This document shows, in pieces, positions 9,072-12,311 of a DNA stretch of 37,341 nt. The translations under genes were made by a program, and so were the position numbers. The notes under the pieces were generated by a model that did no database searches, was not told the DNA's origin, and saw only the letters and a program-made list of their open reading frames with translations. Each line of letters begins with the position of its first letter. The stretch's first letter is position 1. Source of the stretch: Patescibacteria group bacterium (GTDB lineage Bacteria > Patescibacteriota > Patescibacteriia > Patescibacteriales > BS150m-G62); contig JADHVC010000009.1 of NCBI GenBank assembly GCA_016784175.1, forward strand, positions 1-37,341. Reading direction: 5' to 3'.

Positions 9072-9740
9072 TCACTTTATAATCTTTAAATCTCTTAATT
9101 CATTTTCTATATCAGCACTTACCACCTTAATATCCTGCTCCCCATTAATCTCAATTAAAATATTCTTTTTTTTCCAATAACTCATAATTGGACCAAACTC
9201 AGTCTGAAATATTTTTATTCTCTCACTTATCACTCTACTGTTATCATCAGCTCTTGTAAATAATTTCTTTTCGCAACTGTCACATACGCCAGTCTTCTTT
9301 GGAGCATTAAATTCAATATGATAAGTCGATCCACACTCGCATGAACGCCTACCCCCCAAACGCCGCTTAATCTCTTGAGAGTCAATTCTCACATATATCG
9401 CATAAATTTTATCGTCCTTACTTGAAATTTTCTTTAACCTATTATCAAGCAATGTTAGCTGATTTTGATTTCTCGGAAAACCGTCAAAGATAATTTTTTC
9501 ATTTGCACCAATCTTTTTTAATTCTTTATCAATAATTAACTCCACAATTTCATCTGGAACTAACTCACCTTTATCTAGGTGTAGCTTGATAAGATTTGCG
9601 ATTTCAGAACGCTTCTTTCTCTCTTCTCTCAAGAGCTTACCTATTGAAATAATCTTAAAGCTAGCCTTTTTCATTAATAGCTCAATTTGCGTTCCCTTAC
9701 CAGACGCAGGTGGTCCGAAAAAAAATATAAATGTTTTCAT
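9072..9740 (-). CDS. adk: Adenylate kinase
   Basis: GPPASGKGTQ P-loop, DGFPRN, Zn-type LID (SCECGSTYH...CDSC). Confidence 0.95.
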   Translation of the reverse strand: MKTFIFFFGPPASGKGTQIELLMKKASFKIISIGKLLREERKKRSEIANLIKLHLDKGELVPDEIVELIIDKELKKIGANEKIIFDGFPRNQNQLTLLDNRLKKISSKDDKIYAIYVRIDSQEIKRRLGGRRSCECGSTYHIEFNAPKKTGVCDSCEKKLFTRADDNSRVISERIKIFQTEFGPIMSYWKKKNILIEINGEQDIKVVSADIENELRDLKIIK

Positions 9741-10705
9741 TATCCTCTATAAGTTATGTGAATTAAATAAAAAATATAAATTAATATAAGAATCATCCCT
9801 TCAAACTTTGAAAGCACATTCTTTTTCCCAGTATAAATAAGTAAAAGCAACAATATAGTCACCGCAAAAAGCAAAATTATGTCTACATTAAGTAATGGAT
9901 CAAACTCAATCGGATGAATAACTGCACTAAGTCCAAGTACCCAAAGAATATTAAATATATTTGACCCAATAACATTTCCAATTGCCATGTCAGTCTTGCC
10001 CTTATATGCAGCCACAGCGGAAGTCGCCAGCTCTGGCAAACTTGTACCCAGCGCAACTATCGATAAACCAATTAGCGCCTCTGAAAGTCCAAAGATTTTA
10101 GCGAACTCAACGCCACCATCTACAATCAATTTTCCACCAACACCTAAACCTACCAACCCTAAAACAACCATTAGCGTGGAAATTAAACCACTTTTCTCGT
10201 GTACACCATCAGCACTAAACTTCTCTATTGTGCCAATCCTACTAATTCCAAATGTGTAATACATAAAAATCACAAAGAATAGTATTAAGATTGTACCATC
10301 AATTCTAGTTAAACTATTTGGAAAAGAGTGGTCGATAATAAGATCATTGAGTAATAAACTGACTGCAAAAATAGCTAATAACGAGAAAGGAATCTCTTTG
10401 TGAACTGTGTTTTTACTTACAGTAAGTGGGCTAATCAGTGCCACAACCCCCAGAATTAAAAGAGTGTTTGACAAGTTCGAGCCGATAATGTTCCCGAGAG
10501 CTAACCCCTCACTCCCCATAAAACTAGCAAAAGTACTAACAATCAACTCTGGGGCCGATGTACCAAACGCAACTACCGTTAAACCAATAACATAAAAAGA
10601 TACATTAAATTTTCTAGCAACTGATGATGCTCCCTCAACCAAAAAATCTGCCCCCTTAATAACAAGAAACAGACCCAAGATAAATAGAGTAACTGTTAAA
10701 AACAT
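9740..10705 (-). CDS. CaCA-family sodium/calcium exchanger (second copy)
   Basis: GTSAPELIVS...GSNLSNTLLILG and GTSLPELATS...GSNIFNILWVLG; stop overlaps the adk start (TAATG). Confidence 0.93.
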   Translation of the reverse strand: MFLTVTLFILGLFLVIKGADFLVEGASSVARKFNVSFYVIGLTVVAFGTSAPELIVSTFASFMGSEGLALGNIIGSNLSNTLLILGVVALISPLTVSKNTVHKEIPFSLLAIFAVSLLLNDLIIDHSFPNSLTRIDGTILILFFVIFMYYTFGISRIGTIEKFSADGVHEKSGLISTLMVVLGLVGLGVGGKLIVDGGVEFAKIFGLSEALIGLSIVALGTSLPELATSAVAAYKGKTDMAIGNVIGSNIFNILWVLGLSAVIHPIEFDPLLNVDIILLFAVTILLLLLIYTGKKNVLSKFEGMILILIYIFYLIHITYRG

Positions 10706-10728: not shown

Positions 10729-10933
10729 AACTTCCAGCAACTGCTCACTATGTCTGCATTATTTTTGAGCACATATAGAATATGTAGTAATTTTTAGCAG
10801 AATTTAACTTAAAAAATTTTATATTTGAGTGAAGCGAGTTTAAAATTTTTGTTAAATTGTGCGTAAAAAATTGCCCAATATTCCATCCTATGCGAAAAAG
10901 TGATGCAGACATAGCGAGCAGTTACAACTTCCA
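10729..10933. mobile_element. MITE-like palindromic insertion (element 10737-10925, 8-bp TSD AACTTCCA)
   Basis: 23-nt TIRs GCAACTGCTCACTATGTCTGCAT / ATGCAGACATAGCGAGCAGTTAC (21/23), imperfect complementarity across the whole element, direct repeats AACTTCCA at 10729-10736 and 10926-10933. Confidence 0.7.
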
Positions 10934-10965: not shown

Positions 10966-11000
10966 TAAAAATAAAAGCCCCTTTAACAAGGAGCTTTTAT
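10966..11000 (-). terminator. Intrinsic terminator after secY (end of ribosomal super-operon)
   Basis: Minus strand ATAAAAGCTCC-TTGTTAAA-GGGGCTTTTATTTTT. Confidence 0.8.
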
Positions 11001-11018
11001 AACCATATGTACAAGAAA

Positions 11019-12311
11019 CTATTTTATATTATCATACTCTCTCATTGTAAGTTGAGCTTCAATCTGCTTCACAATATCAATAACGACTGATACAACAATC
11101 AACAAGCTAGTTCCACCAATAACCAAGAATTGTGCCCCTGAGAAATATCTAACAATCAAAGGCATCACTGCAATAAAAGATAAAAACAAAGCACCTACTA
11201 AAACCACACGATGAGATATGCGTGATAAATATTCTGATGTCTCGTTACCAGGTCTTATTCCAGGAATAAAACCGCCTTGCTTCTGTAAATTCTCCGCAAT
11301 TCTATCTGGATGAAAAACAACTTCTGTGTAAAAGAATGTAAACCCAAACACTAACACAAAATATACAACACCATAAAACAAATCTTTTTGAAATAGTTCA
11401 ATTACCCATTGTGCAACACTTGCAACCCATGGCGTTTGAGCATTAATAAAGAACTGAGCAATCATGGAAGGGAATATAATAATTGAGATTGCAAAAATAA
11501 TAGGTATCACACCAGCCATATTAACCCTTAGCGGTAAGTGTGTATTTTCTCCACCATAAGTTCTACCAGCTCTAACCTGCCTAGCATATTGCACTGGAAT
11601 ATTCCTTTGCCCCTCAGTCACATATATAACGCCTGCAATAGTAGCAACAGCAAGTGCTAAAAAACCAACAATAGTAAATAATTTTGATGGATCGTATGTT
11701 GCGATTGTCTGTTGAATAACCTGAGGTAGCGAAGATATAATACCAGCAAATATCAAAATAGATATACCATTTCCAATCTTTTTCTCAGTAATTAATTCTC
11801 CTAACCACATCAAAAATACAGTACCAGCAGTAATAGTAACTATCATTACAAACATATCAAACGCACCTATATCACCCAAAATATCATATTGAGATTTTTG
11901 TAAAATTGTAATCATCCCAAAGGCCTGAATAGCCGCAAATGGAACCGTAGCCCATCGAGTCCAAGTATTAATCTTTTGTCTTCCCTGCTCTTCTTTTTGC
12001 ATCTCTTCCATCTTCGGAACAATCATACCTAAAAGCTGAAAAATAATTGAACTAGTAATATAAGGAGCGATTCCCATCATTACGATAGAAAAATTCTCCA
12101 TAACACCACCAGAAAACATATTTAAAAGACCAAGAACCTGATTAGACCCAAAAAACTCTCTCAAATTAGCTGTATTAACGCCAGGAATTGGCACGTGAGC
12201 TGCAAAACGAAATATAACCAATATCCCCAAAACAAACAAAATATTATTTCTTAACTCTTTAATATTTATTATTTGTTGTAACTTATTTACTATCATTATC
12301 TTGTTTTTCAA
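11019..12311 (-). CDS. secY: Preprotein translocase subunit SecY
   Basis: 430 aa; VPIPGVN, APYITSSIIFQLL, GGFIPGIRPG; probably starts at an internal Met. Confidence 0.97.
   Translation of the reverse strand: MKNKIMIVNKLQQIINIKELRNNILFVLGILVIFRFAAHVPIPGVNTANLREFFGSNQVLGLLNMFSGGVMENFSIVMMGIAPYITSSIIFQLLGMIVPKMEEMQKEEQGRQKINTWTRWATVPFAAIQAFGMITILQKSQYDILGDIGAFDMFVMIVTITAGTVFLMWLGELITEKKIGNGISILIFAGIISSLPQVIQQTIATYDPSKLFTIVGFLALAVATIAGVIYVTEGQRNIPVQYARQVRAGRTYGGENTHLPLRVNMAGVIPIIFAISIIIFPSMIAQFFINAQTPWVASVAQWVIELFQKDLFYGVVYFVLVFGFTFFYTEVVFHPDRIAENLQKQGGFIPGIRPGNETSEYLSRISHRVVLVGALFLSFIAVMPLIVRYFSGAQFLVIGGTSLLIVVSVVIDIVKQIEAQLTMREYDNIK

Follow-up and report, generated by a model that had tools for sequence, protein, structure and literature searches.

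Patescibacteria are usually described as streamlined, and a 189-bp palindrome flanked by 8-bp direct repeats, lying between two genes of one of them, raises the question of whether it is a transposed element or a structure kept for its function and, if it was transposed, which transposase moved it. The window analyzed here is a stretch of 37,341 nucleotides from a Patescibacteria group bacterium (contig JADHVC010000009.1), and its assembly, G000, comprises 1,211,824 bases in 61 contigs and is 91% complete. Genome sizes across the order range from 0.6 to 1.7 Mb. Within the window, the ribosomal protein genes L15 and S5 are adjacent, with no L30 gene in between. The small genomes and this gene order fit Patescibacteria, as do the groups in which ISAon1 relatives were found (below).

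The original prediction placed the element between a terminator following secY and the start of an exchanger gene; matches of the two genes to PF00344 and PF01699, together with a terminator-like hairpin, bear this out, and the predicted boundaries with AACTTCCA on both sides are exact in the sequence (Table 1). The first 23 bases and the last 23, once reverse-complemented, agree at 21 positions, as had been claimed, with mismatches at positions 2 and 11. An ungapped inverted-repeat search returned 33-nt arms of 85% complementarity, and the consensus ends of the family pair perfectly over 30 bp when G-U pairs are allowed. As RNA, and with its flanks included, the whole element folds into the expected single hairpin, at −75.4 kcal/mol compared with −33.2 ± 3.7 kcal/mol in shuffles (z −11.3), and none of 200 shuffles folded as well. 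No ORF of at least 80 aa overlaps it, in line with its description as noncoding, and an Rfam search of the window returned no family at gathering score.

Table 1 Coordinates of the window element, its neighbors, and related elements in this and other genomes.
Feature	Location	Strand	Basis or details
Sodium/calcium exchanger gene	window 9740..10705	-	PF01699, E 5e-67; start 31 bp from element
Left copy of 8-bp target-site duplication AACTTCCA	window 10729..10736	.	sequence
MITE, 189 bp, imperfect palindrome over whole length	window 10737..10925	+ (arbitrary, as written in window)	full length; the assembly holds 44 such copies
Left terminal inverted repeat, consensus GTAACTGCTCACTATATCTGCA; window copy has C at position 2	window 10737..10758	+	alignment of 43 copies
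Inner AT-rich stem and loop of hairpin, AAAAATTTTA / TAAAATTTTT	window 10812..10852	+	fold
Right terminal inverted repeat	window 10904..10925	-	sequence and alignment of 43 copies
Right copy of 8-bp target-site duplication AACTTCCA	window 10926..10933	.	sequence
Terminator-like hairpin in the gap from secY to element	window 10971..11000	-	consensus scan
secY	window 11019..12311	-	PF00344, E 6e-107; upstream of element, same strand as exchanger
Mini copy	G000, C54:46060-46114		
Mini copy	G000, C58:3720-3800		
Mini copy	G000, C36:147-208		
Mini copy	G000, C26:7770-7825		
Mini copy	G000, C39:5560-5672		
Intact IS66 element L145	G135		1505 bp; ends GTAACTGCTCACTGACCCC, exact duplication AAATGCGA; NF033517, E 2e-62
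IS66 element L160	G169		1513 bp; ends GTAACTCCTCACTGAC, duplication CTTAACCA
IS66 element L120	G020		1553 bp; ends GTAACTGCTCACTACCCATCCA; no visible duplication
MITE-sized element	G049		194 bp; exact 8-bp duplication TAGACCAT
MITE-sized element	G064		185 bp; exact 8-bp duplication GTGGATTT
MITE-sized elements	G347		177 and 156 bp; exact 8-bp duplications AATGTAGA and GAAATTTT
MITE-sized element	G169		172 bp; exact 8-bp duplication ATTTTGTC
MITE with TGTCATTGCGAG motif	L142 3070-3231		
MITE with TGTCATTGCGAG motif	L148 1556-1732		
MITE with TGTCATTGCGAG motif	L149 1845-2000		
MITE with TGTCATTGCGAG motif	L150 261-432		
MITE with TGTCATTGCGAG motif	L151 1158-1329		

A BLAST search against its own genome showed the element to be multicopy, with matches at 40 unrelated sites (~187 bp, 91–96% identity). 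Counting within the sequence stretches around end motifs gave 44 full-length copies (188–190 bp, 91–96% identical) and 34 partial ones, about ten of which are cut by contig ends, the others being internal deletions with both ends kept or one-ended remnants. With up to two mismatches allowed, the 22-bp end motif matches G000 at 57 + 63 = 120 places, and its reversed control at none. With its 44 full copies, this genome does not bear out the prediction that elements of this kind are rare where genomes are streamlined. Some mini copies of 55–113 bp keep both ends while most of the interior is gone, and some of these have near-exact flanking repeats (Table 1).

The same end motif has no match among 110 other genomes of the order, the nearest kin among the compared genomes belonging to other families. 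Elsewhere in the order, BLAST returned matches of 20–50 bp, which are short and AT-rich and were taken as chance. An exact pattern of end plus interior found no match in genome_contigs, a set that possibly excludes the window's own records, and viral_contigs gave no match to either the end pattern or the ISAon1 protein. A single-copy sequence shared at one position among relatives, the outcome that had been named as refuting transposition, is thus excluded by the many unrelated loci and by the absence of the 22-bp end from the 110 genomes. The copies diverge from their consensus by 0.5–6.9% (median 3.2%), indicating a burst that was fairly recent, though not of the very latest date.

The flanks of the copies look as transposition with a stagger of 8 bp would leave them. 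When a shift of one base is tolerated at each end, 17 of the 42 copies with both flanks present show an exact 8-bp target duplication, compared with 0.35% in a mismatched-flank control, and 24 of the 42 match at 7 or 8 of the 8 positions, compared with 2.2% when flanks of different copies are paired. Exact unshifted repeats have a length of 8 in 16 copies and a length of 9 in none. Nine of the 42 copies have no recognizable duplication (5 or fewer of 8 matches).

By simple ORF calling rather than curated annotation, 40 of the 41 classified copies are intergenic, although ORFs cover 86% of positions drawn at random from these stretches; the bias is explained by selection against insertions that disrupt genes. 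An intergenic, palindromic, and abundant repeat could also be a REP/REPIN-type palindrome that a Y1 (RAYT) transposase has spread, or a repeat resembling the Rickettsia palindromic elements, but Y1 transposition leaves no target duplication and RPE-type repeats often lie inside coding genes, contrary to the 8-bp duplications and the intergenic placement seen here. REPs are moreover 20–40 bp long with a GTAG or CGTC tag (PMC3733652), compared with a unit of 189 bp with IS66 ends, which makes such an origin barely credible.

In tandem gene settings, the strand written as plus in the window lies opposite to the flanking genes in 19 of 24 copies (p 0.007, post hoc). The consensus RNA hairpin has −66 or −84 kcal/mol depending on the strand, and the favored tandem orientation puts the less stable one in the message. 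GC skew was considered as the cause of element orientation and rejected (27 of 44 opposite, not significant).

The very stable fold could instead mark a structured RNA or regulatory hairpin (an attenuator, terminator, or small RNA) that is retained for its function and only looks like a transposon. Across the copies, 96.8% of the paired cells of the helices are standard pairs, and double-sided changes occur in 32 cells compared with 18.6 in shuffles, as a conserved structure might show. However, almost all of these changes fall at end positions 7, 16, and 17, as for two ends that must match, while the inner stem (helices 5 and 6) has 99% of its cells paired and is almost invariant, so that it offers no independent evidence of selection on structure. 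The copies also sit at unrelated loci with direct duplications and occupy tandem (22), divergent (9), and convergent (9) gene settings among the 40 intergenic copies. They are paralogous insertions whose end motif the 110 relatives lack, and covariation through the helices at an orthologous locus, as expected of a conserved RNA, was not found. Together with the lack of an Rfam match, this makes a functional RNA highly improbable.

IS66 elements have inverted repeats starting with GTAA (GTAAGCG in typical members) and 8-bp direct repeats (PMC11946415). A search of G000 with an intact IS66 transposase found two remnants only. The first, at C7:5352-5788, is a 437-bp deletion derivative with 22-bp ends identical to those of the MITE and an exact duplication, AGTTAGAG; of an IS66 transposase it retains both tips, N-terminal and C-terminal, the frame at its right end matching NF033517 at 337–382 of 387 (E 7e-5). 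In the second, on C30, a MITE-type 22-bp end leads into a frame whose residues 42–94 match the start of the intact IS66 transposase (44% identity, E 2e-7). By inspection, the MITE interior has no similarity to these remnants beyond the ~22-bp ends.

The C30 locus is also the source of a competing reading, that an ISAon1 (ISL3-group) transposase mobilized the MITE. The sole long transposase frame attached directly to a MITE end in G000 is of the ISAon1 family: the MITE-type 22 bp come first on C30, and ISAon1 upstream and downstream reading frames follow. ISL3-family elements likewise make 8-bp duplications. But related ISAon1 elements (L117, L118) end in GGATCATACGCAATA, compared with MITE-type ends of GTAACTGCTC / GTAACTGCTCACTAT, and at its far end the C30 copy has GGTTTTACGTGTGATCC, which is an ISAon1-type end in reverse complement. 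Over its first ~95 residues the C30 frame matches the beginning of the IS66 transposase and not ISAon1, and IS66 coding sequence forms the end of the C7 derivative. The best reading of C30 is a fusion of an IS66 remnant with an ISAon1 copy. ISAon1 was dropped as a partner, since its own ends differ and IS66 was identified in the C7 derivative; the ends refute this reading, and we consider the involvement of ISAon1 very unlikely.

Several further features of these loci were recorded. At L050:780-2500 (G000:C30), the IS66 start, including the transposase N-terminus, is fused in frame to the ISAon1 upstream gene; the ISAon1 DDE transposase after the fusion is split by a frame change, and the far ISAon1-type end is present in two tandem copies. 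ISAon1 relatives were found in Berkelbacteria, Doudnabacteria, and other bins. A complete 1944-bp IS66-like element with a 563-aa transposase lies at L043:1304-3247 (G000:C50), where the 28-bp ends, GTATCCTCTTTAAATTCCAAGGTAAACC, are perfect and the repeat of 8 bp is GGTTGTGT/GGTTGTGC (7 of 8); it was rejected as the partner, its ends being GTATCCTCTTTAAATTCCAAGG.

No intact transposase or IS66 element with ends GTAACTGCTCACTATGTCTGCA is present in the 91% complete G000 assembly, and an intact source copy would have been lost or missed in assembly. The insertion sequence with matching ends that had been called for was nevertheless found, as remnants here and intact in relatives (L145, L160, and L120, Table 1). 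Intact ~1.5-kb IS66 elements of the class have GTAACTGCTCACT-type ends, and related intact elements have the first 13–14 end bases in common with the MITE. The transposases P0005 and P0004, from elements with these ends, score above cut-off for PF03050 and NF033517.

MITE-sized elements were also found in four other genomes (G049, G064, G347, and G169, Table 1); they have the same end core as the window copy but interiors unrelated to its own, and all fold as long hairpins. In G169, the L160 IS66 element coexists with hairpin MITEs of 172 bp whose ends are of the same type. Elsewhere in the class, hairpin MITEs that have IS66-type ends contain a TGTCATTGCGAG palindrome motif in their interiors (Table 1).

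MITEs are generally shorter than ~300–600 bp and contain no transposase gene. The family conforms to this at 188–190 bp, with no ORF of at least 80 aa, with terminal inverted repeats, an 8-bp duplication, and 44 copies, and its ends are common to an autonomous element, as judged from the C7 and C30 remnants and from the coexistence of IS66 element and MITE in G169. The IS66 traits are present as well: ends beginning with GTAA (GTAACTGCTCACTATRYCTGCA), 8-bp direct repeats, and elements with such ends that encode an IS66 DDE transposase. The prediction of a non-autonomous transposed element is therefore supported by the copies at unrelated sites, the insertion sequences with matching ends, and the single hairpin fold. 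On these sequence comparisons, we put at roughly 90% the probability that the window element is a MITE and that a DDE transposase of the IS66 family moved it in trans; the mover was presumably this IS66 lineage, and the shared ends suggest that this clade recognizes them.

Under the proposed mechanism, the IS66 transposase would bind both MITE ends, GTAACTGCTCACTATRYCTGCA, and cut out or copy the element, which would then be joined at an 8-bp staggered cut in AT-rich intergenic DNA; repair of the stagger would leave the flanking duplication AACTTCCA. The palindromic interior may help to bring both ends together or may merely be tolerated.

The alignment of 43 copies revealed a four-fold difference in diversity between the 44 end positions (1–22 and 168–189; 0.145) and the interior (0.036), with a sharp step at 22/23. 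Alleles at positions 16–18 are alike at both ends of the same copy in 28 of the 43 copies, a value reached in 0 of 10,000 permutations. Such matching is expected if the transposase prefers matched ends or if correction runs from one hairpin arm to the other. Several unrelated MITE interiors of 156–194 bp in five genomes each form one long hairpin, and a class-wide reading would be that IS66 transposases repeatedly mobilize fully palindromic short elements, whose extruded hairpin may pair the ends and let one end correct the other. We regard this extension as unlikely; if true, an end-correcting hairpin would account for the matched end alleles together with the four-fold end variation.

The window element represents a new family of a kind already known. 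With the IS66 insertion sequences of the single-transposase type it shares GTAA ends and the 8-bp duplication, but, unlike them, it is noncoding, and the 145 bp of its interior are not IS66 sequence. IS-derived bacterial MITEs of similar character are MITECca01 of Cardinium, with 240 bp, 169 copies, and IS982 as its parent (PMC9769881), and Chunjie of Geobacter uraniireducens, with 178–235 bp and 38 copies plus 57 partial ones (PMC10969869). Both resemble the window MITE in size, terminal inverted repeats, intergenic placement, the mixture of full and truncated copies, and a burst in one lineage, and MITECca01 also in its reduced host genome; the window MITE differs from them in its IS66 parent (IS982 for MITECca01), in having no intact parent in the assembly, and in its whole-element hairpin. 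The Correia elements of Neisseria have other ends, and they differ in duplicating TA at the target and in having a parent of the IS630 type, compared with 8 bp and IS66 here. They are likewise small, palindromic, intergenic, and of high copy number (204 bp, more than 120 copies; PMC10969869). A non-exhaustive literature search found no report of MITEs in Patescibacteria or of IS66-derived MITEs.

Contigs break inside MITE copies at the starts of C3, C12, C13, C14, C35, C38, C42, and C52 and at the ends of C1 and C29, and the repeat thus limits the G000 assembly. The MITE copies explain these assembly breaks and are usable as markers of strain divergence. The burst amounts to ~1% of a 1.2-Mb genome; its parent family can be named as IS66 and its end sequence is defined, and the gap in diversity between ends and interior bears on how such elements evolve.
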